In this document: piece after piece, positions 8,052 through 36,834 of the stretch
Numbering within the stretch: position 1 is the first letter of the stretch
How the letters are laid out: the number at the start of each line of letters is the position of its first letter
Source: Rhizophagus irregularis
Lineage: Eukaryota; Glomeromycota; Glomeromycetes; Glomerales; Glomeraceae
DNA length: 64,000 nucleotides
Direction: 5' to 3'
Assembly: GCF_026210795.1 (NCBI RefSeq)
Contig: NC_089436.1
Location: 4,092,001 to 4,156,000, forward strand
Made by a program: the position numbers and the translations under genes
Notes under the pieces: generated by a model
What the model was told of the DNA's origin: nothing
What the model saw: only the letters and a program-made list of their open reading frames with translations
Database searches by the model: none

Positions 8052-10476
8052 ATGGACCAACGTATTGAAGGTATACCAAACAATCTGAAATATTAAGTTT
8101 TTGTTTATAAACAATTTATCTATAATTCAACTAATTTTATTCTTAATTTAAATAACTAGATTGTAAGTAATATATATATAATTTACAATAATTACTTTTA
8201 TATTATTTTTATATCTAACTAATTAATAATTAATAATACTACAGGGTGTAAGTTATATGATATCTATATTTATATTATTTGTACAATCCAATCTAACCAA
8301 TTTCTTTATTTAAAAAATTATTAAATAAAATAGGGAGTAAGTTATTTATTTAATTCTATTATTACTTATTGTTATAATATTTACATATAAAAACTATCTA
8401 ATTTCTTTATTTATTTAATAGTTGGTAAGTTATTTATTTAATTCTATTATTACTTATTGTTATAATATTTACATATAATTTAAACTATTCTAATTTCTTT
8501 ATTTATTTAATAGTTGGTAAGTTATTTATTTAATTCTATTATTACTTATTGTTATAATATTTACATATAATTTAAACTATCTAATTTCTTTATTTATTTA
8601 ATAGATCGTAAGTTATAAGTTATTTATTTAATTCTATTATTACTTATTGTTATAATATTTACATATAATTTAAACTATCTAATTTCTTTATTTAAAAAAT
8701 TATTAAATAATATAGGGTGTAAGTTATTTATTTAATTCTATTATTACTTATTGTTATAATATTTACATATAATTTAAACTATCTAATTTCTCTATTTAAA
8801 AAATTATCTATTATCTAGCTTGTAAGTATCTCTATTGTTCTATTGTTATATATTTTATATAATATTTATTTGTTAATTTAATTCTTTCATTTAAAATATC
8901 TGTTACTTTAGTTGGTAAGTTGTAAATTATAGATTATTATATTGTATTTAACCAAAAGCTAAGACTTATATACATTAAATTCCTATTTAAATTTTAGAGT
9001 AAGTAATAATTTATTTTTGTGTAAATTATAATACAATCTATAATATAATAATTTTAATTATTTAAATTTATAGATTTGGAAAAAGTGGAAATGCAATTAT
9101 AGATGATTTTATTCTTAAAAAAGTATTACAATGGATTCCTTATGACAAATTTAAAGAGGTTGAACATCTTAGTGAAGGGGGATTTGGTACTATATACAGA
9201 GCTATTTGGTTAAAGAATAATGAAGATAATGAAGATGAAGAATCTGATAAAGAGGATGAAGAAGTAATTCTTAAATGTCCCAAGAATTTAAATGAAGATT
9301 TAAATGAATTTTTAAAAGAAGTATGATAGTATATTATTTTCTATTTTTAATTTAAATTAAAATTTATCTATATTAATAATAATTATTATCTTTTATAGTG
9401 GGAATATCATACAAGTGTTTTAACTTCAAATGATATTATAAATGTTTATGAACTCACAAAAGAGCCAAATACTTCAAAATATATGGTAGTAATGGAGTAT
9501 GCAAATAAAGGTAATTTAAGAGAAAATTTAACAACAATAGTCGAAAATAATTGGAATCAAAAATTATATATGTTGTACGAAATTATTTCTGGACTTAGTA
9601 AGATACATGGAAAAAATCTCATTCATTGTGATTTTCATGATGGTAATATTTTAAATCATAATGATAAGAATGAGGATAAAATTTATATTTGTGATTTAGG
9701 ATTATGTCAACCTGTAAAATCGTTTTTGAAAAAGTATGATATTTATGGTGTTATACCATTTATGGCTCCTGAGGTTTTAAGAGGCAAATCTTATACTCCA
9801 GCTAGTGATATATATAGTTTTTCTATGATTATGTGGGAACTTACATCTGGGATACCACCATTTAATGATAGAGCACATGATATTCAACTTAGTTTAGGTA
9901 TTTGTAAAGGTGAACGACCTGAAATTATTGAAAATACTCCACAATGTTATGTAGATTTAATGAAAAGATGTTGGAATGAAGATCCATTAAAAAGACCATC
10001 TTCTAAAGAAGTATTAGAAATTATTAAAAAATGGATTTTCCATTCTTATAATAATGAAGCCAGTGAAGAATTACAAAGCAACATTATGGAATTTATAAAT
10101 GCACCAATTGGGCGTAACAATCTTTCTACTAAATCTCACCCTAAAGCATGTTATACAAGTCGCTTACTTGATTTTACTAGTAAAAAATTGAATGAAATTC
10201 TTGAAAGTGAAAATTCACAAGCATATCGTGCAAGTCATTCAGATTTGAATGATTGTTTGATTAATGATGATAGGTCATTAGGTATATACTATAATATATA
10301 AAAATTAATCTTGCAAATTATTTATATGAAATTAATTAATTCATTTAATTATTAAAACAGATAAGAATACTAGTAAAAAGTTGAATGAAAGTCTTGAAAG
10401 TGAAGATTCACATGCTACTAGTTTAAAAGCAAATGAAGTGCTAGTAAGTGAAGATATGAGTGATTATATAATTTAG
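8052..10476 (+). CDS. TKL-type protein kinase 1, with 3-nt micro-exon array
   Basis: Model: exon 8052-8070 (MDQRIE + G), nine 3-nt exons and one 1-nt exon (8998), exon 9074-9320, exon 9399-10281, exon 10361-10476. It totals 1293 nt = 430 residues with no stop. Kinase marks: Gly loop SEGGFGTIYRAIW, Lys in VILK, catalytic loop LIHCDFHDGN (Cys in place of the usual Arg of HRD; Asp and Asn kept), DLG for DFG, MAPEVLRG, and the C-lobe W...RP motif. The C-terminal tail holds SRLLDFTSKKLNE. Exon 9074-9320 has no in-frame Met before the Gly loop, so translation must start upstream, which needs the array region to be spliced. A read-through of the last intron would stop at 10299-10301. The protein is probably a cytosolic Ser/Thr or dual-specificity kinase; substrates are unknown. 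Confidence 0.8.
8071..9073 (+). repeat. Short intron/micro-exon array in kinase 1 (9 three-nt units + 1 one-nt unit)
   Basis: Between donor gtatac at 8071 and acceptor tag at 9071-9073 lie candidate exons bounded by AG and GTAAG: att 8160, ggt 8245, gga 8334, ttg 8422, ttg 8514, atc 8605, ggt 8716, ctt 8819, ttg 8912, and a single a at 8998. The intron bodies are 80-110 nt and similar to each other. Read from the phase-1 upstream exon these give D-W-W-I-V-D-R-S-F-E and then FGKSGN of the kinase exon. The last residues align with NFKNWTSGN of the kinase pseudogene at 52433, which has no array. The splice signals are seen directly; inclusion in mRNA is inferred. Confidence 0.75.
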
Positions 10477-13400
10477 AATTTGGGGTCATTGGGTATGTAC
10501 TATGATATATAAAAGGAATTAATCTTGCAAATTATTTATGTGAAATTAATTTTATTTAATATTTAATTATTTAGATATTAAAATAAATTAAAATTAACTA
10601 ATCATTGTTTGTTCTTAAAAAAAATTTATAGTTTTTTTTAAGTGATATTTGATATTACGCATTCAGAAGAAATTGTTCTTTATTTTATTCTTTTTAGATT
10701 TATTTAAATACTAAGGCTAGAGTAGTAAAATATTTTACAAATTTCTTAGTTTGTAATTTAAATAATTCCTTTTTTTTTAGCTTTTCACTTTTTTTATTAT
10801 ACTTAGAATTATTTAAACACTAAGACTAGAGTAGTAAATATTTTACAAGTTTCTTAGTTTGTAATTTAAATAAATCTTTTTTTTATAACTTTTCCAATCC
10901 AATTATGAGATATAAATTATTAATATAAGGCTATTATTATTTGGCGACCCTGTCACCATGGCGCCCACCTCATATCATGTGCTTTTTAATTTTTCTGATA
11001 CTTTATTTTTTCAATATTAATTTTTTTAATTAGTACTCTTAATACTTTTTTTTTTATGTGTAAAAAATTGAGAAATTTTTAATAATAAACAAACCAATGA
11101 ATAAATAAATAAATGAGCAAACAATAAACGAATAAATAAATGAATGAATAAAAGCATGAATAAAACAAACAAACCTATTAAAATATAAGAAATGATTATA
11201 CAATTTGTATACATTTTACTGAAAATTAACGTGTATATGTTATAATTGATGTCATATATTGTATGGGCTTATCGGACTCATTTCACTAAGTAATGATTAG
11301 GTGATAAAATTGAGGGGATATGGGAAACATCTTACTAATATCACGTGATTCAATCATAGAATATTATGTGAAATAAAAAAATTTGTCTAGTTTTTATATA
11401 AAACTAACAGATATTCGCTCGTTAAAAGAAATTCTGTATTATAAAAAGATTTGAATAAAAATAAATTTTTAGATACATACTTTTCTATCAATCAGCTTTA
11501 AATTTAAGAATGAGCCAATGAGAATATTGCTAATACAATTCGATTCTCTTAATTTATAATCTGAAGAAGTTGGTTATTTAATTTCCGAATAATTTTTTCT
11601 AAAATTAAAATCTTCGAACATTTACCTTTTCAATTATATTTGACTATGTATGACCCTAGAAACTTTTAATTATTATTTATTTATTGATTTACTTCGTATG
11701 GGCATAAAATTTCTTTATATTTTGCAAATGTTTGTAAATATTTTATTGAGATAAATATGAAATATATAGTGGGTTAAATATTAAATATTAATCCAAATAT
11801 AAAAGCGTTATAAATTTTAATGAAAAAAAAAAGTTTTTAGAAGGTAACCATTCTAATAATTTTCGAGCAATATGTAAATGATTTTAAATTTGTTTTTTAA
11901 TGTATAAAATTTTATAACGATGAAATTTTCTTTTTTTATTAACTTGTGTTCCGAAGGGTTGAGTCGGGTCAGGTTTTGAGGTCTATTCGAAGTTTCGAAC
12001 TCAATTTTTAACAATAGATTGGGTATAATTATTTTTTTCGCCATTCAGAAAATTCTTTGTACTGTATAACAATAGGTCGGATATAATTAGTTTTTTTTGA
12101 CATTTGGAAAAATTTTTTGGATAACAATAGATTGCTATGATATGATTTTTCTGAAGAATTTTTTTTGCAACAATAGATTGTTATAATGTGATTTTTTTTT
12201 TCTGTCACTTGCTGCTTTGTTAATAAAGTAAAAAACTAATAATAAAAATATCTAATCCTGATTTAAAATTAATTATTATTATGATCTATACTAATTATCT
12301 TTGTTATTTTTATTTATATAGAGTAAAATATAAGTATAATTAACAAATGTCACAATAATCAACTCGCAGTTAACATATCATTGTAGTACCGTATTGTGAT
12401 GACTAATAAAAATTGTACTACTATCAGAATTTGCTATTTTTCATTCAGCTTGAATTGTTCAATTAATAATCAAAAAAGGTCCTCCATCAAGAAATTATTA
12501 TTAATTTACTGATCAAATTTTTTTAACGCAGATTTATCATACATTATATAAATTTAAAAGAAACAATATTAAAAAAAATTATGTGTGAATTGTTAAAAAA
12601 AATATAAAAAAAAAATTTATCCATGGTGATATTTGCTGAAAAAAATTTTTAAGAAAAAAAAATTATGCATAATATGATTTTATTTATTGGTTAGGAAACA
12701 GTATTATTGAAAAAAAAATTTAAGAAAATGGTTAAGGAAACAATATTGAAAAAAATATAAGAATGTTGAAAAAAAATCTTACTAAGAAAGAAAAATTATG
12801 TGTTGTTTGAGAAAAAAAAAATGTTCATTAAGAAAAAAATTATCCATATTGTTAAAAAAAAAAAATTTTTTTGCCAAAATAAAAAAAATTATTTGTGTGG
12901 CTTATTAGTTATTAATAATAATACCTATAAAAATTTTGTAATAAATCAGACACAGATAATATTAGCCTCCCATAATTTTATATGCTAAATGACAATAAGT
13001 AACCCATCAGTTATATAATGAACCCATCAATTGAGCTTAAATATTAATTGGCTTGATTTTTCCAATCAGCCGATATGATATGTTACAGAATTCAAAATTA
13101 TATCAAAGATTATTTAAAGCCATAATAACAATACTAATTTTAAAGCCTATTTATTATTGATTACTAAATTATTTATTTATTTCACTTATTTAAGAAATTA
13201 ACAAAATTCACTATATAATCGCTAGAAAATTCTCTATTTTCAATACATAACTGAAACACAATAAAATATTAAAAAAAATATTTTTTTTTATCGCCAAAAT
13301 TAATCAGCTATTTCAGGAAATGATCAGCAAAAATTGTCATGTGATCGACTGGTGCTGTTGGGAAAAATGTAGCCAACCGTTTTTGATTTAATATAAAAAA

Positions 13401-14654: not shown

Positions 14655-17600
14655 ATGGCTTTCAATAATGATAAAGGTAATAGAATATGTATAGTATAAA
14701 TATTTAATACAATTAAAATTCTTATATTTTTAAACAAATTTATAATATAATAAAACTAGTTTCTGGTAATATTGAATTTGAAGGAAGCAGCACTAAAGAA
14801 TTTGAAGGAAGTGGATCTGAGGAATTCAATGGAAATGACTCTGAAGAATTTGAAGAAAGTAATATCAAGGAATCTAAAGGTATATTAAAAATGCTAAAAT
14901 ATAAAATATTAAATTTTTATTTGTAAATACATTAAATACATTTAAATATTATATATACTATATAATTAAACTTTACATAATATATTTAAATAATCTAGCT
15001 CGTAAGTTAATAGGTTATCTTATAATTGAATTACTTATCATTTTTATTACATCCATTTCAAGTAATTAAATAATTTTATTTAATTATTAATACAATGTTA
15101 TACTAGTCAGTAAGTTATTAGTTATTTAAATCTTCAATTTTTTACCTTATTTTATTTATTCTACATAATATTCAAATAAATAATTCTTTATTTAATTAAT
15201 TACTTAATAATTAATTGTATTACAGATGGTAAGTTATAATATCATATTTATTTGCTTATTATTTTATATAGCTTTAACTAATTATATTCTTAATTTAAAT
15301 AACTAGATTGTAAGTAATATATTTAATTTACAGTAAATACTTTTTTATTATATTTATATTTATATTTAATAATTAATTAATAATACTAGGGTGTAAGTTA
15401 CAGTAAATATCTATATTTCTATTATTTATATAATTTAAGTTAACTAAATTCTTTATTTAAAAAATTATTTTGTATTTTTTTAAAGTTGGTAAGTTATAAG
15501 TTATTTATTTAATTATATTATTATTTATTTATATAATATTTACATATAATTTATGCTAACTAAATTCTTTATTAAATAGATCGTAAGTTATAAGTTATTT
15601 ATTTAATTTTATTATTACTCATTTATATAATACTTGCATATAGTAATTTAAATTAACTAAACTCTTTATTTAAATAGATCGTAAGTTATAAGTTATTTAT
15701 TTAATTCTATTATTATTTATTTATATAATATTTATTACATATAATTTAAACTAACAAAATTCTTTATTTAAATAGATCGTAAGTTATAAGTTATTTATTT
15801 AATTCTATTATTATTTATTTATAATATTTATTACATATAATTTAAACTAACAAAATTCTTTATTTAAATAGATCGTAAGTTATAAATTATTTATTTAAAC
15901 CTATTATTACTTTTTAATATAATATTTACAAATAATTTAGATTAACTAATTTCTTTATTTAAATAGATCGTAAGTTATAAGTTATTTTTTAATTCTATTA
16001 TTATAATATTTATATATAATTTAAACTAACTAAATTCTTTATTTAAAAATTATTTAATAATATACTAGGGCGTAAGTTATTTATTTATATAATATTCAAA
16101 TATAATTTAAACTAAATAAATTCTTTATTAAAAAAATTATTTAATAATATAGGGAGTAAGTTATTTATTTATATAATATTTACATATAATTTTAACTAAC
16201 TAAATCCTTTATTTAAAAAATTATTTTGTAATTTCCTTTAGTTAGTAAGTTACAAGTTATTTACTTAATTCTATTATTACTTTATTTATATAATATTCAC
16301 ATATGACTTAAACTGAATTCTTTATTTAAAAATTATTTAATAATATAGGGTGTGAGTTATTTATTTAATTCTATTATTACTTATTTATAATATTTAGCAA
16401 ATAATTTAATTTAACTAAATTACTTAATAATATAGGGCGTAAGTTACTACCTATTTAATTCTATTATTACTTATTATTTATTTATATAATATTTATATAT
16501 AATTTAAACTTACTAATTTTTTATTTGAAAAATTATTTAATAATATAGAGCGTAAGTTATTTGTTTAATTCTATTATCACTTATTTATATCTATTATTTA
16601 TTTACATAATATTTATATACAATTTAACGAATAAATTCTTTATTTAAAAAATTATTTAATAATATAGGGCGTAAGTTATTTATTTAATTCTATTATTACT
16701 TATTTATATAATATTTACATATAATTTAAATTAATTTAAAAAATTATTTTGTAATTTCTTCTAGTTTGTAAGTTATAAGTTATTTATTTAATTCTATTAT
16801 TACTTATTTATACATTATTTAACTAACCAAATACTTATTTAAAAAATTTTTTGATAATATAGGGCGTAAGTTATTTATTTATATAATATTTACATATAAT
16901 TTTAACTAACTAAATTCTTTATTTAAAAAATTATTTTGCAATTTCTTTAGTTGGTAAGTTATAAGTTATTATTTAATTCTATTATTACTTATTTATATAA
17001 TATTTACATATAATTTAAATTAACTAAATTCTTTAAAAAAATTATTTAATAATTAGAGCGTAAGTTATTTATTCTATTATTACATATTTATATAATATTT
17101 ACATATAATTTAAACTAATTAAATTCTTTATTTAAAAAAATTATTTGATAATATAGGACGCAAGTTATTTATTTAATTCTATTATTACTTATTTAAATAA
17201 TATTTGTATATAATTTAAACTAAATAAATTAATTATTTAAAAAATTATTTTGTAATTTCTTTTAGTTGGTAAGTTACAAGTTATTTATTTTATTCTATTA
17301 TTACTTATTTATATAATACCTACATATAATTTAAACTAAATAAATTCTTTATTCAAAAATTATTTAATAATACAGGGAGTAAGTTATTTACTATTTAATT
17401 CTATTATTATTTATTTATTTATAATTTAAACTAACTAAATTCTTTATTTAAAAATTATTTTGCAATATTTTTTAGTTGGTAAGATATAAGTTATTTGCTT
17501 AATTCTATTATTAGTACTTATTTAATATAATATTCACATATAATTTAAACTAACTAAATTCTTTATTTAAAAAATTATTTTATAATTTCGTTTAGTTGGT

Positions 17601-20600
17601 AAGTTATAAGTTATTTATCTAATTATATTATTACTTATTTATGTAATATTTACTACGTATAATCAAAATTTATTTAAATAGATCGTAAGTTATAAGTTAT
17701 TTATTTAATAGTATATTATTACTTATTTATATAATATTTATATATGATTTAAATTAACTAAATTCTTTATTTAAAAACTAGGGTGTAATTTATTTATTTA
17801 ATTCTATTATTACTTATTTATATAATATTTGTATATAATTTAAACTAATCAATTTCTTTTTCTAAAAGATTGTAAGCATAAGCTATTTATTTAATTCTAT
17901 TATTACTTATTTATATATAATTTAAACTAACTAAATTCTTTATTTAATATTATTTAATAACATAGGGTGTAAGTTATTTATTTAATTCTATTATTACTTA
18001 TTTACATATAATTTAAACTAAGTAAATTTATTCAAAAAAAATATTTTGTAATTTATTTTAGCTGGCAAGTTATAAGTTATTTATTTAATTCTATTATTAC
18101 TTATTTATATAATATTAATATATAATTTAAACTAACTAAATTCTTTATTTAAAAAATTATTTTGTAATTTCTTTAGTTGGTTAGTTATAAGTTATTCATT
18201 AAATTCTATTATTATTTATTTATATAATATTTACATATAATTTAAACTAGTAACTAAATTTTTATTTAAAAAATTATTTAATAATATAGGACGTAAGTTA
18301 TTTATTTTCCATTATTACTTATTTATATGTAATATTTACAAATAACTTGAACTAACTAAATTCTTTACTTAAATAGATCGTAAGTTATAAGTTATTTATT
18401 TAATTCTCTTATTACCTATTTATGTAATATTTATATATAATTTAAGCTAACTAAATTCTTTATTTAAAAAATTATTTAATAATATAGGACGTAAGTTATT
18501 TATTTAATTCTATTGTTACTTATTTATATAATGTTTATATTTAATTTAAACTAACTAGATTCTTTATATAAAAAATTATATGATAATACAGGGCGTAAGC
18601 TATTTATTAAATTCTATTAGTACTTGTTTATATATATTTACATATAATTTTAATTTAAACTAACCAAATTCTTCATTTAAAAAATTATTTAATAATATAG
18701 GGCGTTAGTTATTTATTTAATTCTATTATTACTTATTTATATAATATTTATATATAATATAAACTAACTAAATTCTTTATCTAAATAGATCGTAAGTTAT
18801 AAGTTATATATTTAATTCCATTATTAGTTATTTATATATATCGATATAATATTTGCATATAATTTAAACTAACTAAATTCTAATATAGAGTGTAAGTTAT
18901 TTATTTAATTCTATTATTACTTATTTACATAATACTTAGATATAATTCAAACTAACTAAATTCTTTGTTTACTAAAAAATTATTTAATAATATAGGGCGT
19001 AAGTTATATATTTAATTCTATTATTACTTATTTATGTAATAATACTTACATGTAATTTAAACTAACTAAATTCTATATTAAAAATTATTTAATAATATAG
19101 GGAGTAAGCTATTTATTTAATTCTATTATTACTTATTTATATAATGTTTACATATAATTTAAATTAATTTAAAAATTATTTTGTAATTTCTTTTTTAGTT
19201 GGTAAGTTATAAGTTATTTATTTATTTCTATTATTACTTATTCATAATATTTACATAAAATTTTAAACTAACTAAATTCTTTATTTAAAAAATTATTTTG
19301 TAATTTCTTTTAGTTGGTAAGTTATAAGTTATTTCTCTTACTTACTTATTCATATAAAATTCGCATATAATTTAAACTAACTAAATTAATTATTTAAATA
19401 GATCGTAAGTTATAAGTTATTTATTTAATTCTATTAATACTTATATAATATTTACATATAATTTAAATAAATTCTTCATTCAAAAAATTATTTAATAATA
19501 TAGGGTGTAAGTTATTCATTTAATTCTATTATTACTTACTATTTATATATTATTTACATATAATTTAAGCTACTGAATTCTTAATTTAACAAATAATTAA
19601 TAATATAGGGCGTAAGTTATTCTATTATTACTCATTTATATAATATTTACATACAATTTAAACTAACTAAATTCTTTATTTAAAAAATTATTTTGTAATT
19701 TCATTTAGTTTGTAAGATATAAGTTATTTATTTAATTCTATTATTACTTAATTATATAATATTTACATAATTTAGACTAACTAAATTTTTCATTTAAAAA
19801 ATTATTCAATAATAATATAGGGTGTAAGCTATTTATTAATTCTGTTATTACTTATTTGTATAACATTTGCACATAATTTAAACTAGCTAAATTCTTTATT
19901 TAAAAAATTATTTTGTAATTTCTTTTAGTTGGTAAGTTATAAATTATTTATTTAATTCTACTAATTCTATTATTAATTATTTATATAATACTGTATTTAT
20001 TCTTTATTTAAAAAATTATTTAATAATATAGGGTGTAAGTTGTTTATTTAATTCTATTATTAGTACTTATTTATATAATATTCTAAATTCTTTATTCAAA
20101 AAATTATTTAATAATATAGGGAGTAAGTTATTTATTTATTCTATTATTACTTATTTATATAATATTCGCATATAATTTAATTAACTAAATTCTTTATTTA
20201 AAAAATTATTTTGCAATTTCTTTTTAGTTGGTAAGTTATAAGTTATTTATTTATTTCTATTATTATTTATTGTTATAATATTTACATATAATTTAAACTA
20301 ACTAAATTCTTTATTAAAAAATTATTTAATAATATAGGGTGTAAGTTATTTATTTAATTCTATTATTACTTATTTATATAATATTTACTTATAATTTAAA
20401 CTAACTAAATTCTTTATTTAAAAAATTATTTTGCAATTTCTTTTAGTTGGTAAGATATAAGTTATTTAATTATTTCTATTATTACATAATTATATAATAT
20501 TTGCAAATAATTTAACTAACTAAATTCTTTATTTAAAAATTATTTTGTAATTTCTTTCAGTTTGTGAGTCATAAGCTAATTATTTAATTCTATTATCACT

Positions 20601-23600
20601 TGTTTATATAATATTTACATATAATTTAAACTTACTAAATTCTTTATTTTTATTTAATAATATACTAGGGCGTAAGTTATTTATTTAATTCTATTATTAC
20701 TTGTTTATATAATATTTACATATAATTTAAACTAACTTCTAAAAAATTATTTTGTAACTTCTTTTAGTTGGTAAGTTAATAAATTATTTAATTCTATTAT
20801 TACATATAATATTTAAATTAACTAAATTCTTTATTTATAAATTATTTAATAATATAGGGTGTAAGTTATTTATTTAATTCTATTGTTACTTATTTATATA
20901 ATTTTTAATTGTAATTTTAAACTAACTAATTCTTTTATTCAAAAAATTATTTAATAATATAGGGTGTAAGTTATTTATTTAATTCTATTATTACTTATTC
21001 ATATAATATTTGCATATAATTTAAGCTAAATAAATTCTTTATTTAAATAGATCGTAAGTTATAAGTTATAAGTCATTTATTTAATTCTATTATTACTTAT
21101 TTATATAATATTTACATATAATTTAAACAATTTCTTTTAGTTGGTAAGTTGAAGTTATTTATATATATATTTATTTATTTAATTCTATTATTATTTATTT
21201 ATATAATATTTACATATAAACTAACAATTCTTTATTTAAAAATTATTTTGTAATGTCATTTAGTTTGTAAGTTATAAGTTATTTAATTCTATTATTACTT
21301 ATCTATATAATATTCACATATAATTTAAACTAACTAAATTCTTTATTTAAAAAATTATTTAATAATATAGGGTGTAAGTTATTTATTTTAATTCTATTAT
21401 ATAATATTTACATGTAATTTAAACTAACTAAATTTTTGTTTATAAAAATTATTTAATAATATAGGGAGTAAGTTATTTATTTAATTCTATTATTACTTAT
21501 TTATATAATATTTACTTATAATTTAAATTAACTAAATTTTTTATTTAAAAAATTATTATGTAATTTCTTTTAGTTGGTGAGTTTAAGTTATTTATTTAAT
21601 TCTATTATTACTTATATAATATTTACATGTAATTTGAACTAACTAAATTCCTACTTTAAAAAATTATTTTGTAATTTCTTTTAGTTGGTAAGTTTAAGTT
21701 ATTTATTTAATTCTATTATTACTTATTTATATAATATTTTTATGTATTTTAAATTAACTAAATTCTTAAAAAATTATTTTGTAATTTCTTTTAGTTGGTA
21801 AGTTATAAGTATTTAATTCTATTATTACTTATTTATATGATATTTACATATAATTTGAACTAATTAAATTCTTTATTTAAAAAATTATCTTGTAATTTCT
21901 TTTAGTTGGTAAATTATAAGTTATTTATTTAATTCTATCATAATATTCATATATAATTTAAACTAACTAAAATTTTATTTAAAAAATCTTTAATAATATA
22001 GGGCGTAAGTTATTTATTTAATTCTATTATTATTTATTTAAGTACTAGTATTTAACTAGATATAATTTAAACTAACTAAATTCTTTATTTTAAAATTGTA
22101 ATTTCTTTTAGTTTGTAAGTTATAAGTTATTATTTAATTCTATTATCACTTACTTGTATAATATTTAGATATAATTTAAACTAACTATATTCTTTATTTT
22201 AAAATTATTTTTTAATTTCTTTAGTTTGTAAGTTATAAGTTATAATTCTATTATTACTTATTTATATAATATTTACATATAATGTAAACTAACTTAATCC
22301 TTTATTTATAAAATATAGGCCGTAAGTTATTTTAATTCTATTATTACTTTATTTATATAATATTTATATATAATTTAAACTAACTAAATTCTTTATCTTT
22401 TAGTTTGTAAGTTATTTACTTAAAATCTATTATTACTTATTAATATTTACAAATAATTTAAATTAACTAAATTCACTATTTAAATAGATCGTAAGTTATA
22501 AGTTATTTATTTAATTCTATTATTACTTATTTATATAGTATTCTAAATTCTTTATTCAAAAAATTATTTAATAATATAGGACGTAATTAATTCTATTATT
22601 ACTGATTTATATAATATTTGCATATAATTTAAACTAACTAAATTCTTTATTTAAAAAATTATTTAATAATATAGGACGTAAGTTATTTATTTAATTCATT
22701 ATTATTTATAATATTTACATGTAATTTTAATTAACTAAATTTTTTATTTAAAAAATTATTTAATATATAGGGCGTAAGTTACTTATTTAATTCTATTATT
22801 ACTTTTTTCATATAATTTAAACTAACTAAATTCTCTATTTGAATAGATCGTAAGTTATAAGTCATTATTTGATTCTATTATTACTTTATTTATATAACAT
22901 TTACATATAATTTAAATTAACTAAATAATAATTATTTTAATAATATAGGGTGTAAGTTATCTATTTATTCTATTATTACTTATTTATATAATATTTACAT
23001 ATAATTTAAACTAACTATATTCTTTATTTAAATAGATCGTAAGTTATAAGCTATTCATTTAATTTTATTATTACTTATTTATATAATATTTACATATAAT
23101 TTAAACTAACTAAATTATTTTTTGAAAAAATTATTAATAATATAGAGCGTAAGTTATTTATTTAACTTTATTTTTACTTATTTATAATATTTACATATGA
23201 TTTAAACTAATTTAAAAAATTATTATATCATTTCTTTTAGTTTGTAAGTTATAAGTTATTTATTTAATTTTGTTATTACTTTATTTATATAATTTTTACA
23301 TATAATTTAAACTAACTTCTTTATTTATAAAATTTATTTAATAATATAGCTTGTAAGTTATTTATTATTTCTATTGTTATATATTTTATAAGTATTTATT
23401 TGTTAATTGAATTCTTTCGTATAAAATTTCTATTACTTTAGTTGGTAAGTGGGTTATTATTATATATATTTATACAAAAACTAAAACATATATTATATTA
23501 AATTTCTATTTAAATTTTAGAGTAAGCATTTATTTTAATCTTAAATAATTTTTAATATAAACGTCAATGATAATTCTAATTATTTAAATTCATAGATTTG

Positions 23601-24894
23601 GAAAAAGTGGAAATACAATTATGGATAATTTTATTTTGGAAAAAAAATTAAAATGGATTCCTTATGATAAATTTAGAAATGTTGAGTTTCTTGATAAAGG
23701 AGGATTTGGTACTATATACAAAGCTATTTGGTTTTATGATGATGAAGATAATGAAGTAATTCTTAAATGTTATAATAATTTAAGTGAAAATTTAAATGAA
23801 TTTTTAAATGAAGTATGATGATATATTATCTATTTTTTTTTTAATTTAAATAATAATTTATTTCCATTAATATAATATTATTATTATTTATAGTGGAAAT
23901 ATCATGAAAGTTTTTTAAGTTCATATGATATTATTTATTTTTATGGGTTCACAAAAGATCCAGATACTTTGAAATATATGGCGGTAATGGATTATGCAAA
24001 CAAAGGTAATTTAAGAGGAAACTTAACAAGAATAATCAAAAGTGGTTGGAATCAAAAATTATATATGTTATATGAAATTATTTCTGGGCTTAATGACATA
24101 CATAATCAAAATCTTATTCATTGTGATTTTCATGATGGTAATATTTTAAATCATAATGAGAGTAAAATTTATATTAGTGATTTAGGATTGTGTAAACCTG
24201 TAGAATCATTTTTGAAAAAATATGATATTTGTGGTGTTGTGCCATTTATGGCACCTGAAGTTTTAAGAGGCAAATCTTATACTCCAGCTAGTGATATATA
24301 TAGTTATTCTATGATTATGTGGGAATTTACATCTGGAGTACCACCATTTAATAATAGAGCACATGATTTTCAACTTAGTTTAAGTATTTGTAAAGGTGAA
24401 CGTCCTGAAATTATTGAAAATACCCCACAATGTTATGTAGATTTGATGAAAAAATGTTGGAATGATGATTCATCAAAAAGACCATCATCTAAAGAAGTGT
24501 TGGATATTATTTATAAATGGATTTTTCGTCCGTATAAAGCTAAACTTGAAGATATTAATGAAGAATTAAAATGCAATGTTATGGAATTTATAAATGCACC
24601 AATTGAGCATAACAATAATCTTGCTACTAAATCTCATTCGCAGGCATATTATACAAGTCGCTTACTTGATTTTACTAGTAAACAATTGAATAAAACTCTT
24701 GAAAGTGAAGATTTACAAGCTAGTGTAAAAGTAAATGAAATGCTAGTAAGTGAAGATTTGAATGATTGCATAATTGAAGATATAAAGTCATTAGGTATGT
24801 TATAGTATATAAAAAGAATTAATTTTTCAAATTATTTATGTGAAATTAATTTTATTTATTTAATTATTTAGATATTGAAACAGATGAAAAATAA
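14655..24894 (+). CDS. TKL-type protein kinase 2, 10-kb gene with large micro-exon array
   Basis: Model: exon 14655-14676 (MAFNNDK + G), exon 14760-14879 (acidic Glu/Ser-rich, with repeated EEF-type motifs), about 85 three-nt exons, a 1-nt exon at 23521, kinase exons 23596-23812, 23894-24794 and 24872-24894. The full set gives 1539 nt = 512 residues without a stop. Kinase marks: DKGGFGTIYKAIW, VILK, LIHCDFHDGN, SDLGLC, MAPEVLRG, WEFTSGVPPF. It is a close paralogue of kinase 1, with shared introns and 3' flank. A Met at 23621 could serve as an internal start giving a shorter product if the array is not used. Upstream starts in the same frame as 14655 exist, so the first Met is uncertain. Confidence 0.75.
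14880..23595 (+). repeat. Giant tandem intron/micro-exon array (about 85 three-nt units + 1 one-nt unit)
   Basis: Every unit, averaging about 100 nt, has the order GTAAGTTA-rich donor, AT body (TTTAATTCTATTATTACTTATTT..., ATATAATTTAAACTAACTAA), T-rich or AT-rich tract, AG, three nucleotides, next donor. Candidate exons start ctc 14999, tca 15107, atg 15236, att 15307, ggt 15390, ttg 15486, atc 15580 and end ttt 23241, ctt 23350, ttg 23442, a 23521. Hand tally: ttg 18, atc 13, ggt 12, ggc 11, ttt 8, gga 5, gac 5, agc 3, att 2, others 8. Unit types group by intron end: ...TTTTAG|ttg/ttt, ...AATATAG|ggN/gac/agc, ...TTTAAATAG|atc. Donor variants include GTGAGT, GTAAGC, GTTAGT, GTAAAT and two GC donors (17160, 18065). 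The AG-3-GT spacing held in every unit I inspected. Confidence 0.85.
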
Positions 24895-25383
24895 CTAATT
24901 ATTTGTGTTTTTATAAGAATTTGGTTTTTTTAAGTGATATTTTATGTTATGCAGATAACAGAATTTATTTAAACATTAAGTAAAATAGTTTATAAGATTA
25001 ATTTAAACAATTCCTTTTTTTTATAGCATATCCAAATATTAAATATTTATATTCTCTTTTATTTTACTTAGAATTATTTAAACACTAAGACTAGGGTAGC
25101 AACCAGCAAGTTTCTTAGTTTGTAATTTAAATAAATTTCAGTTATTAAATATAAATTATCAAAATAATAATATAAACATAGTATAAACCATTTCCAATGC
25201 ATAAAATTAAAAATAAATAATACAAAATTTTTCTATACTCATTTCAATGGCTAATTGAATTTAATTTATATTGTTGACTTTTATAGGATTATTTTAATGT
25301 TCAAAGAGGTGAATCCACCTGGGGTGATTTTTACTGTATCATATAATTTATAAATAATTACTAGGAAACGGGAACCGTTGTAA

Positions 25384-31327: not shown

Positions 31328-33539
31328 TAAGTTGGACGATCCTGTAGATCGGCGAGGTTTTATTAATAATGTTTCACATCAATTACATTAATTAATAAAA
31401 ATAGTACGCAATTTCAATTTTTTCTATACTGAAATTTAGAAGGAATAATTTTTAAATATAATGTTGGACTTACAAATTTTATTCCATCACACTTTGATAC
31501 TACCGCAATATTAGTAATGATTATGGCAAGCCGAGTTGGACAAAATTATCAGACATTGCGTGATAAAATATCAAGCATGGCTAGACAAAATGTCACTCCG
31601 TGTCTGACATTTTACCTGTTTATGCTTGATTTTCATCTGTCCCGTGCTTGATATTTATCTGATATTTTTATCTGTTCATGCTTGATGTTTATCTATCACG
31701 TGCTTGATATTTTTATCTGTTCATGCTTGATGTTTATCTGTACATGCTTGATGTTTTATCTATACGTGCTTGATGTTTTATCTGTACGTGTTTGATGTTT
31801 ATCTGTACATGCTTGATATTTATCTGTATGTGCTTGATGGTTTTATCTGTACGTGCTTGATGGTTTTATCCGACCATGCTTGACATTTTTATCCGTCCAT
31901 GCTTTATGTTTTTATCCATCTGTGCTTGATATTTTTGTCCGTCTGTGCTTGATGTTTTTGTCCAACTGTGTTTGATTTAATCCAACTATGCTCGATAATT
32001 TTATCTTTGTCAAAAATTAGTTTCTTTGTCAGCACAGGGTTGATATATTGTTGGTCACATGTTTTAAGTTTAGCGTAGTTTTAAAAAATTTTTTTTTTTT
32101 ATTGGCTTTTTTTTATAAACAAATTTTGTAGAGAATTTTATTTTTAATATAGGCAAAGGCTTAGTTTGATAGAATTTCTTTGGGAATTTTTTTAATAAGA
32201 TTTTTTTGATAAAAAATTTCGTTAGAAAATTTTTTTCATTGATAGGAACATTTCTGAGTTTTTTTTTTTGATGATAATTTCGTTAAAAATTTTTATTTGA
32301 TAGAAATTTTATTGGAGAATTTTTTTTTGATAAGATTTTTTTTTGACATATACTTAACAATTTTTTGTGACAGGAGAAATTTTTTTTTTTTGCAGAAAAT
32401 TATTTGAAGAATTTTTTTAATAGGGAAGATTTTTTTTTTGATAGATAATTTCGTTACTAGAAAATTTTTTTAACAAGTGAGATTTTTTTTTGATAGAGAA
32501 TTTTGTTAAGAATTTTTTTTTTAATAGGTAAGATTTTTTTTTTTTGATAGATCATTTCGTTAATAATTTTTTTAACAGGAGAGATTTTTTTTTTTGATAG
32601 ATCATTTCGTTAATAATTTTTTTAACAGGAGAGATTTTTTTTTTTTGATAGATCATTTCGTTAATAATTTTTTTAACAGGAGATTTTTTTTTTGATAGAA
32701 AATTTCGGTAAAGAATTTTTTTTTTAATAGGGAAAATGTATTTTTTGATGGAAGATTTTCGTTAGAAATTTTTCTTAATCAGGGATATTTTTTTTTGATT
32801 GAGAATTTCATTAGAGAATTGTTGGTTGAAAAGTTTTTTTATTTTTTTGATGGAGAATTTTGTTAGAAGTCTCAATAGAAAATTTTATTGAAAATAGTTT
32901 TTTTTTAATAAGGGTATCGAGAATTTTGGCTTGAAATTTTTTTTTTTTAATAAAGAATTTCATTAGAGATCTTTTTTTATAAAATTAAAAAAAATACTAA
33001 ATTACATTAATAAGATTAAGATAAAATTAAAAAAAACTATGATAGAATCCTAAGTAGCATAAGTAGCATAGTAAATTAAGCAAATTTTATATACTAGTAA
33101 AGCTCCGCATGAGCCAACATAAATTAAGAAGTTAACTTTAAGAAAAGTATATAGCAGAAATTTGTTTGCAGTGTTTCTTCTTTTTATCATTAATTAGCAT
33201 AAAAACATTTTTGAAAATCTACTATTTTAAATACTTTTAATATATATAAATAAAAATTGGGATTGCTAAATGTCGCCTGGGCGATCATCGCCTGGGGTTT
33301 TTTTTTCAAATATGTATCTAATTTTTGATCGGTTATTATTAAAAAGATATTTTTTAAAAAAATTTTTTTGCAAACATATTTATTCAAAATAACCTTATTT
33401 AATGAAATTTTATTTACAAAATTAAAATTTAAGTCACATTTACGATTTTAAAGAATAAAATCACCATATTTATTTTTATTGAAATGTACAAATAAAAGAA
33501 ACAATAACAATAAATAAAAAAGATAAGTAAATTACAATG

Positions 33540-34105
33540 ATCAAGGAAAAAAAAATATAATAACAATGGAGTAATGGAAAGTAATAGAAGATGAAAGGGA
33601 GTAAAAAAGAGTATTGAGAAGTGATAGGAACCAAAAGGAGAAATAGGACATGATGAGAGATGAAAAGGAGTGATGGAAGACGAAAAGAAGTGATGGGTGA
33701 CAAAGAGGAGTGATGGGAGATAAAAAAAAAGAAGTGATGGGAAGATTAAGAGGAGTGATGGGAGATAAAAAGGAGTGATGGGAGATGAAAAGAAGTGATG
33801 AGAAGATTAAGAGGAGTGATGAGTGACGAAAAGAAATGATGGGAAGATTAAGAGGAGTGATGGGAGACGAAAAGGAGTGATAGGAGACGAAAAGAAGTGA
33901 TGAGAAGATTAAGAGAAGTGATAGGAGACGAAAGGGAGCGATGGGAGACGAAAAAGAGTGATGGGAGACGAAAAGGAGTGATAGGAGACGAAGAGGAGTG
34001 ATGGGAGACGAAAAGGAATGATAGGAGACGAAAAGGAATGATGGGAGACGAAAAGGAGCGATGGAAGATTAAAAGAAGTGATGGGAAGATGAAGAGGAGT
34101 AAAAA
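33540..34105. repeat. 20-bp minisatellite in the fold-back loop
   Basis: Tandem units of GGAGTGATGGGAGACGAAAA, with variants such as GAAGTGATGAGAAGATTAAG, run from about 33660 to 34105 with a degraded start near 33540. Purine-rich on the plus strand. The unit length is not a multiple of three and the frames do not look coding. Confidence 0.8.
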
Positions 34106-35409
34106 TTTATTAAAATTGTAAAATTTAATAAAAAATTTTCCAATCAATTTTCAATCAATTTTTTATAAAAAAAAAGATCTCTAATGAAATTCTTTATTAG
34201 AAAAAAAAAATTTCAAGCCAAAATTCTCGATACCTTTATTAAAAAAAAACTATTTTCAATAAAATTTTCTATTGAGACTTCTAACAAAATTCTCCATCAA
34301 AAAAATAAAAAGGCTTTTCAACCAACAATTCTCTAATTAAATTCTCAATCAAAAAAAATATCCCTGATTAAGAAAAATTTCTAACGAAAATCTTCCATCA
34401 AAAAATACATTTTCCCTATTAAAAAAAAAATTCTTTACCGAAATTTTCTATCAAAAAAAAAAAATCTCCTGTTAAAAAAATTATTAACGAAATGATCCTA
34501 TCAAAAAAAAAAAAATCTTACCTATTAAAAAAAAAATTCTATGATGAAATTTCTATCAAAAAAAAAAAATTCTCTAATAAAATTTTCTGTCAAAAATACT
34601 ATTAAAAAAAATTCCCAAAAGAATTCTTTATCAAGGAAAACTCCCTCCTATTAAAAAAAATTCCCAAAAGAATTCTTTATCAAGGAAAACTCCCTCCTAT
34701 TAAAAAAAAATTCTTAACGAAATTCTCTATCAAAAAAAAATCTCACTTGTTAAAAAAATTTTCTAGTAACGAAATTATCTATCAAAAAAAAAATCTTCCC
34801 TATTAAAAAAAATTCTTCAAATAATTTTCTACAAAAAAAAAAATTCTCAATTAATTCTCTATCAAAAAAAAAAAATCTCTCCTGTAAAAAAAAAATTGTT
34901 CCAACAAATTAAGTATATGTCAAAAAAAAAATCTTATTAAAAAAAATTCTCCGAAATTATCATCAAAAAAAAAAACTCAGAAATGTCCCTATCAATGAAA
35001 AAAAATTTTCTAACGAAATTTTTTATCAAAAAAAATCTTATTAAAAAATTCCCAAAGAAATTCTACCAAACAAAGCCTTTGCCTATATTAAAAATAAAAA
35101 TTCTCTACAAAATTTGTTTATAAAAAAAAGCCAATAAAAAAAAAAATTTTTTTTAAAACTACGCTAAACTTAAAAACATGTGACCGACAATATATCAACC
35201 CTGTGCTGACAAAGAAACTAATTTTTGACAAAGATAAAATTATCGAACATAGTTGGATTAAATCAAACACAGTTGGACAAAAACATCAAGCACAGACAGA
35301 CAAAAATATCAAGCACAGATGGATAAAAACATAAAGCACGGACAGATAAAAATGTCAAGCATGGTTAGATAAAACTATCAAGCACGTACAGATAAAACCA
35401 TCAAGCATA

Positions 35410-36309
35410 TGGCAAGCCAAATCGGACAAAAGTCTGTCAATGCACAGATAAATTTTCACAGTTATTCTTTGCCATTTTTAGTAATTTTTTGCAGATGATC
35501 TGTGATATTTTGCATATATTATCTGCGAAACTTTCCAAAAATTTTTACAGATATTTTTTCCAAATTTTCCCATTTTTTATTATCTGTGCATCAACAGATA
35601 ATTTATCTGTACATTAGCAGATAATTATCTGAATATTAACAGATAATCATCCAGATTTTAACAGATAAATTACTCTAATTATTAAGATAATAATTTGCAT
35701 TTTAGTTTTAGAGAGAATGGTATTAAATGTATGAATTTAAAATAATTTTTAAAAATTTATTTGTTTAATTTAAAAACAAATAGTACAATTGAGATATTAA
35801 AAAAAAAAATTCATTCTGTTATAGTGTAAGATAAAAATATAATAAATAAATTATGTATCAAAAACTATAAAGTAATTATTATTTATTAACAAAATATTAT
35901 AAAAAGTATATTAATAAACATTAAAAACTTTCCTTGTAAAGCAATAGATAAAAAATCATGAAAAAAAGTTTAAGTTTGACAAGTTTCAGAATTCTAAAAA
36001 ATGTTTTTTTTAATTTATCACACAAAAAAATATAAAAATTTAATGATAATTTATCTGCTATTACCCAGATGATTATCTGTTAATATTCAGATAATTATCT
36101 GTTAATGCACAGATAAATTATCTGTTAAAGTTCAGATAATAAAAAATGGAAAAATTCGGAAAAAACATCTGTAAAAAATATCAGACTGTTTCACAGATAA
36201 TAAATGCAAAATATCACAGATCATCTGCGAAAAATTACCAAAAATGGAAAGAAATAACTGTGATAATTTATCTGTGCATTGACAGACTTTTGTCCGTTTT
36301 GGCTTGCCA
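35410..36309. mobile_element. 900-bp fold-back element nested in the larger one
   Basis: Ends TGGCAAGCC...GGCTTGCCA with TA on both sides (35408-35409 and 36310-36311). The arms (about 35410-35690 and 36040-36309) are inverted copies rich in CAGATAATTATCTG words. It interrupts the 21-bp repeat of the host right arm, which continues on both sides. The shared terminal GGCAAGCC shows that both elements belong to one family. Confidence 0.88.
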
Positions 36310-36834
36310 TACAAGCACGTACAGATAAATATCAATCACGTACAGAAAAACATCAAGCACGGTACAGATAAAACATCAAGCACGTACAGATAAAACATCA
36401 AGCACGTACAGATAAAACATCAAGCACGTCAGATAAACATCAAGCATGAACAGATAAAAATATCAAGCACGTGATAGATAAACATCAAGCATGAACAGAT
36501 AAAAATATCAAGCACGGACAGATGAATATCAAGCATGAACAGGTAAAATGTCAGGCACGGTGTAACATTTTGTCAATCCATGCTTGATTTTTCACCCGCC
36601 CAATGCCTGATAGTTTAGTCCAGCTCGGCTTGCCATAAATGATATCATTGAATAGTGATGTGCAACTGTTTGGTTGCACAAATCATACTAAATAAGTTCA
36701 TTTTGGAATAGACACATCGCATAAATTTACGCCAACTTGCAGTTGTACAAAACTTACATTTAAACGAAAATATTATTCCTAAATAAAAATCTTACGTCGC
36801 TAGAGGTTTTAATTCTTTTGCAACAAAAAAAAAT

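Follow-up and report, generated by a model that had tools for sequence, protein, structure and literature searches.

The schistosome micro-exon genes (MEGs) are described as fast-evolving, alternatively spliced genes that contain series of very small symmetrical exons (PMC4350168), and exons of only 1 or 3 nucleotides (nt) are reported to be spliceable in Arabidopsis APC11, plant VPS55, Drosophila troponin T, and mouse Ncam (PMC4674806, PMC8042270, PMC8831610). Introners, or introner-like elements, are described as intron sequences present in many copies per genome (PMC4457414, PMC9860276), and a new intron of the potato RdRp gene is attributed to tandem genomic duplication (PMC4974935). We analyzed a stretch of 64,000 nt, hereafter called the window (assembly GCF_026210795.1, contig NC_089436.1, positions 4,092,001 to 4,156,000 of the forward strand), from Rhizophagus irregularis, an arbuscular mycorrhizal fungus that lives in soil with plant roots and whose kinase repertoire, for DAOM197198, is given as 2,533 members in PMC10234402. 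A protein kinase gene in this window contains an array of 85 three-nt exons, set in series between short introns and closed by a one-nt exon. From the genomic sequence, we put the probability that these triplets are joined in order and translated as a variable protein stretch at about 0.9.

The original prediction for this window, made from its letters, described a tandem array of about 85 introns with 3-nt spacing. A pattern search and two splice-chain callers confirmed 85 triplets, with no unit missing. By regular expression, 92 AG-NNN-G(T/C) sites were found in positions 14981-23460; 7 that overlapped a preceding site were dropped, and the remaining 85 units, 76-123 nt apart, form a series without a gap. 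The AG-3-GT geometry, which the prediction described for every unit inspected, is present in 85/85, with an AG acceptor and a GT (twice GC) donor. The first caller has no preference for length 3; it mildly favors short exons, with slight penalties on long exons (0.03 per nt) and long introns, and some of its exons are 20-130 nt long. With the second caller, lengths of 1-12 nt rank equally, and longer exons and introns over 140 nt are penalized. In the window, the first caller placed 84 further three-nt exons downstream of the first triplet, followed by a one-nt exon (context TTTTAG-A-GTAAGC) and the kinase exon; the second caller returned the identical chain, including the one-nt exon. The gene model that follows from this chain is given below.

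14655..14676, forward strand: coding exon 1 (ATG), phase 1 at its end, from the translation of the gene model
14760..14879, forward strand: coding exon 2, with Glu/Ser-rich repeats, closing ...AAAG in phase 1
14880..14998, forward strand: intron preceding the first triplet
14999..23444, forward strand: 85 three-nt exons and 84 introns (73-120 nt range), CTC TCA ATG ATT GGT TTG ... CTT TTG
23521..23521, forward strand: one-nt exon A, found by both callers, the base that restores the kinase frame
23596..23812, forward strand: first kinase exon (FGKSGNTIMDNF...), entered in phase 2
23894..24794, forward strand: main kinase exon
24872..24894, forward strand: last coding exon, stop included

The spliced gene has 1,539 nt, open throughout, and encodes 512 residues plus the stop. 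Its product matches Pfam PF07714 and PF00069 (E 3.4e-40 and 5.2e-38, respectively), both past the curated cut-offs. Micro-exons supply 256 of the 1,536 coding nt, i.e., one sixth, and encode a variable segment of 86 residues that links the short N-terminal part to the kinase domain; no Pfam family was found for this chain-coded peptide. Because exon 2 ends in phase 1, every codon of the chain is split by an intron, the first base lying at the end of one exon and the other two at the start of the following one. The micro-exons had been predicted to be single codons; they are indeed 3 nt long, but none is a codon by itself. The last codon before the kinase, GAA, draws one base each from TTG, the one-nt exon, and the kinase exon, and the chain and the kinase lie in different frames if the one-nt exon is left out. 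A 24-bp coding repeat (GAATTTGAAGGAAGTGGCTCTGAA) lies inside exon 2 (window 14774-14860), and the end of exon 2 is resembled in three other loci (C18:317k, C17:4262k, and C9:299k).

The array unit recurs across the genome with 317 matches, and the first kinase exon has at least 151 among the best candidates scored, the window's two included. We called splice chains in 50 loci, namely 35 of the 37 that were assembled, the window's included, and 15 chosen from later kinase matches; kept outside the 50-locus counts were the two assembled loci without a kinase match (C4:3475k and C23:3395k), five distant-kinase loci, three further array-DNA loci, and the C23 follow-up stretches. The kinase exon was present in 35/37 assembled loci, a chain of three-nt exons in 35/35 of these, and the chain ran to the kinase exon in 34 of them. 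Eight or more three-nt exons were found in 49/50 called kinase loci, both window genes included, and chains in nearly all called loci have 8 to 91. Many loci were chosen for likeness to the array; 29 were instead chosen from kinase-exon matches (9 + 15 + 5), and 28 of these carry 8 or more three-nt exons. They include five loci from a kinase group that is further removed (exon identity 59-63%), likewise with chains, and the 15 later loci, 14 of which have 11 or more three-nt exons. The exception, C14:3026k, has a one-nt exon, and either none (first caller) or one (second caller) of three nt in the 2.2 kb that precede its kinase exon; it is possibly a case of array loss. Conversely, among 29 loci chosen by array DNA (26 + 3), the same kinase exon lies downstream in the same orientation in 28; at C4:3475k, the 2.7 kb examined contain 3 introns and no kinase.

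The ends of the chains are shared as well. Several family genes begin CTC-TCA-ATG-ATT-GGT or with a near variant, the chain ends CTT-TTG-A in 25/35 loci, and the last micro-exon is 1 nt long in 49/50 chains (A 45, G 2, T 1, C 1). Some changes at the end are synonymous in the proposed frame: TTG to TCG turns TTT into TTC, and A-A to A-G turns GAA into GAG. Intron-free copies of the chain-coded peptide were sought with a query of 63 residues, composed of the exon-2 end, the short-chain peptide, and the kinase exon (from residue 19); among the best 150 of 3,671 candidates, no listed match starts before residue 8. At ten loci with matches from residues 8 to 13, nine had chains of 11 or more three-nt exons, C14:3026k being again the exception. 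An assembly artefact was ruled out by judgement, as dozens of loci share the structure. A related array extends over about 17.5 kb at C23:3382400-3400300, its blocks of units set apart by long gaps, and precedes a family kinase exon; the stretch at 3.3824-3.4003 Mb (17.9 kb) was considered as an array lacking a kinase, an idea dropped when the kinase was found in further stretches. This array was left out of the counts owing to its many odd exons and long gaps.

The coding constraint on the joined triplets carries the proposed reading. Stop codons were scored in runs of two or more three-nt exons from the first caller, in the frame that the flanking exons impose; a run ends at any odd exon, which is dropped, and frameshifts are thus not scored as stops. 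In the 50 loci, which hold 1,407 three-nt exons in uninterrupted runs, a stop was formed at 0 of 1,324 adjacent joins, whereas shuffling of exon order within genes led to an expectation of 42.1 +/- 5.1, with a minimum of 24 in 2,000 shuffles. Counting distinct adjacent pairs per gene gave 0/1,056 (38.5 expected), globally distinct pairs 0/442 (27.7 expected, 500 shuffles), and the second caller 0/1,349 (42.0 +/- 5.1 expected). After three-nt exons that end in T, the next exon starts with AA, AG, or GA in 0/316 cases, compared with 56/317 after A, 60/314 after C, and 83/373 after G (199/1,004 pooled). Stops in the other two frames numbered 4/1,153 and 152/1,093 in 35 loci, and reversed-order joins, also in 35 loci, had 34/1,093 with no depletion. 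The absence of stops from all 1,324 adjacent joins argues that selection sees each exon joined to its immediate neighbor. Constitutive inclusion of the micro-exons at the RNA level is suggested by the same constraint, and the predicted gain of about 85 residues by the kinase agrees with the frame, the absent stops, and the recurrence in the gene family.

Composition and length are consistent with coding triplets. Exon G+C by position is 36, 34, and 53%, vs. 9.9% in intron bodies. With the second caller, 1,399 of 1,491 exons in the 50 loci are 3 nt long, 14 are 6 nt, and 59 are 1 nt, 49 of the latter being terminal micro-exons. The lengths of introns below 140 nt fall into all three residue classes modulo 3 (526/517/458), with no clear preference for multiples of three. 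Phe, Asp, Glu, and Trp are more frequent than in shuffled order, and Val, Gly, Tyr, and His less frequent; part of this bias is due to the shared chain ends.

The 86 window introns downstream of the first triplet have GT at 98% of donors and GC at 2% (two donors), A4 at 100%, and G5 at 97%; their acceptors are AG in 100%, with T before AG in 93%, and CTAAC, TTAAC, CTAAT, or CTTAC occurs near the acceptor in 65/86. With such donors, acceptors, and branch-point-like motifs, the window introns have the features of U2-type spliceosomal introns, and the coding constraint suggests that they are excised from transcripts. Because the caller demands GT/GC and AG, the test against chance rests on spacing. 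In the first 27 stretches examined elsewhere in the genome plus window 1-25000, 676/808 GTAAG[TCA]/GTGAGT sites lie exactly 3 nt past the nearest AG, vs. 1/49 in the control (window 25001-64000, both strands). A genome-wide search (146.7 Mb, 32 contigs) for TAG-NNN-GTAAGT twice at intron spacing found 2,349 pairs, a pattern count alone with no locus-by-locus kinase check, vs. 2 in the reversed control; the four-nt version (NNNN) gave 0 vs. 1. In the 50 loci, the strict pattern catches 479 pairs where 1,399 three-nt exons were called, and the genome-wide total may reach several thousand, about 6,900 by rough extrapolation from the strict pattern. The one-nt-exon signature occurs 104 times vs. 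7 in the control; three of the listed matches were unlike the family by eye, in agreement with the control. On these grounds, the window array is best described as a chain of putative spliceosomal introns with micro-exons; the observation is real and far beyond chance.

Several observations weigh against the proposed reading. At C17:4227k, the chain stops short of the kinase exon, from which an unresolved stretch separates it. Some variation at the chain end is non-synonymous, e.g., the T, G, and C forms of the one-nt exon. Only 32/50 chains are fully clean; the remainder hold odd exons near long stretches or weak or mutated sites, with a few frame-shifting units, and some family genes may be broken. 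No recognized branch-point motif was found in 21/86 window introns. The window array by itself has 0/84 stops with 2.5 expected (only P = 0.04), so that the strength of the stop test lies in the gene family, and joins within a gene are not independent because units duplicate together with their neighbors, a dependence that distinct-pair counts lessen without removing. Joins that skip three exons are low in stops (24/1,088 vs. 34.9 expected, reached in 1.3% of shuffles; distinct pairs 19/887, 0.2% of shuffles); we offer no explanation, except that this may reflect the repeat structure.

A different view accepts the intron chain as real and holds that regulated skipping of subsets yields many in-frame isoforms, as in the schistosome MEGs and as the original prediction had also suggested. 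Almost all internal exons are multiples of three, so that loss of a three-nt exon keeps the frame, and about 97% of skip-one joins are free of stops. Frequent skipping, however, would predict that stops are avoided at joins of exon i to i+2, and these occur at the shuffled rate (41/1,241 vs. 39.5 expected), as a result of which selection appears to act on in-order neighbors. Stops were also present at joins that skip two (48/1,160 vs. 37.1 expected) and four exons (35/1,024 vs. 32.9), and the window gene's one-nt exon is unskippable without a frameshift. The data thus indicate, at the level of coding constraint, in-order splicing and translation and not mainly a skipping library, and we regard a major role for regulated skipping as unlikely, although some skipping may occur. 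That the array is a non-coding minisatellite within one long intron, with the kinase starting at ATG 23621 or with 14879 joined directly to 23596, seems very improbable to us. The units are AT-rich tandem repeats that are found by TRF, and the ATG at 23621 is in frame, but a non-coding repeat would not account for 0/1,324 stops in one frame, unlike the other frames, or for the one-nt exon and end triplets that recur in paralogs. A start at 23621 leaves the selection on the chain unexplained, and omission of all micro-exons from the window gene model causes a frameshift and a stop 18 codons past the join.

Recursive splice sites have AG-GT geometry, and the AG-NNN-GT units, being akin to them, might ratchet out one large intron while the triplets are discarded. 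We give this almost no credence: discarded triplets are not expected to avoid stops at adjacent joins, and the base composition of the triplets is strongly unlike that of introns. A recursive splice site is a zero-length exon from which nothing is retained; as 3 nt under coding constraint separate AG and GT here, the window units do not belong to that class. A further proposal concerns only origin and is compatible with in-order translation of the triplets, namely that introner-type mobile introns were inserted one per codon into a single exon. The units are similar intron copies within one genome, and the 5'-most triplets (CTC TCA ATG ATT GGT), which have distinct introns, could be an older exon cut up. 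Such an origin is nevertheless doubtful, given that the kinase exon lies in the same orientation behind 28/29 arrays chosen by their DNA, and given the coupling of exon bases to the half-introns on either side, a pattern to be expected of duplicated modules.

This coupling is evident in the window array, where three main module types (AG-GGN, AG-ATN, and AG-TTN) mostly keep their own intron ends; the original prediction had already noted at least three types of intron body. TTN exons have TTTAG before and TATAAG after in 17/24 cases, GGN exons AATATAG and TATTTA in 14/20, and ATN exons TAAATAG and TATAAG in 11/12, and therefore the module looks like half an intron, an exon, and half an intron. 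The first kinase exon of C18:317k is identical to that of the window gene at 212/217 positions (5 differ) and its exon 2 differs at 8/120, and there are 11 three-nt exons in C18:317k vs. 85 in the window paralog. Arrays thus seem to evolve as exon modules are duplicated or lost at intronic breakpoints, for which a recombination mechanism is our suggestion. Six-nt ATTCTT exons in C24:1385k, C24:973k, and C19:356k resemble two fused triplets with the frame kept, and they look like precise intron loss between two triplets. C9:1556k, C2:1189k, and C28:1610k contain single units with mutated donors or acceptors or with frame-shifting one-nt internal exons, possibly decaying copies.

We propose that each unit, about 100 nt long, is a three-nt exon flanked by the adjoining halves of two introns. 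All introns would be excised by the spliceosome, most likely in a stepwise manner under intron definition, because a three-nt exon leaves little room for two assembled spliceosomes. The triplets would be joined in order, and the one-nt exon would then set the kinase frame. If modules were duplicated, lost, or exchanged by breakage within the similar, AT-rich introns, whole residues could be added or removed, and a new neighbor at a join would create a new codon there; because each codon straddles an intron, such changes would cause no frameshift. The product would be a kinase whose domain is preceded by the variable segment and a short N-terminus; that the segment serves in binding or recognition is a guess. 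On balance, we lean toward viewing the array as a hypervariable coding minisatellite that can be read only through splicing and in which intron recombination shuffles and invents residues, perhaps diversifying recognition segments of a kinase family.

The one-nt exon at 23521, which completes the chain, goes beyond the original prediction, as does a second chain in the window, with 9 three-nt exons and a one-nt exon, in a paralog at 8 to 9 kb.

8052..8070, forward strand: exon 1 of the short-chain paralog
8160..8998, forward strand: short chain ATT GGT GGA TTG TTG ATC GGT CTT TTG, with the one-nt exon A at 8998
9074..9320, forward strand: first kinase exon of the short-chain paralog

A motif (AGAATTATTTAAACACTAAGACTAG...) trails both window kinase paralogs (10678-10921 and about 25060-25130) and forms, after the first, a 108-bp tandem repeat of about two copies. 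Elsewhere, window 31539-36559 contains nested tandem-repeat arrays that look inverted by eye: units of 21-23 bp occupy 31.6-32.0 kb and recur as the reverse complement at 35.3-36.6 kb; AT-rich units of about 50 bp fill 32.2-32.9 and 34.3-35.0 kb; and a purine-rich 20-bp array of 22 copies spans 33.65-34.10 kb. Together these are perhaps one large palindromic element.

If the proposed reading is correct, the spliceosome accurately joins about 85 three-base exons and one one-base exon in series, which tests ideas on how small an exon can be and on steric constraints; the roughly 100 replicate genes, a pattern count, provide a natural test bed. The proposed reading also suggests how proteins might become hypervariable, with introns acting as spacers for recombination one residue at a time. 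Such exons will probably escape standard annotation and spliced alignment, so that the segment may be missing from kinase models of this fungus, or the models may begin too far downstream.

We found no report of serial three-nt exons among the listed results of searches in the open-access literature, for some of them the top matches, and these searches did not cover subscription papers or preprints. Like the window gene, the schistosome MEGs have a series of very small symmetrical exons, and exon lengths in multiples of three are common to both (1,413/1,491 internal exons of 3 or 6 nt here). Unlike MEGs, the window family has exons of 3 nt, tens in a row, that are mostly similar copies of a few modules, and its product is a kinase; micro-exons make up most of the coding region in MEGs, by definition, and one sixth in the window gene. 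MEG products vary by alternative splicing, whereas the stop patterns of the window family argue against a major role for it and point to full inclusion. Secreted or gland-associated products are a further trait of MEGs; the product of the window gene has a kinase domain. The one-nt and three-nt exons documented in the sources cited above are isolated, whereas here tens stand in series with a terminal one-nt exon, in about 100 genes by pattern count. Introners, whose copies are scattered over independent sites in unrelated genes, share with the window units the presence of many intron copies in one genome; the window units differ in being tandem, in carrying a coding triplet each, and in belonging to one gene family in the loci examined. 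The potato RdRp gene, as reported, is a single case of an intron from tandem duplication, whereas in this kinase family tens of units are found per gene and the exon part is fixed at 3 nt.

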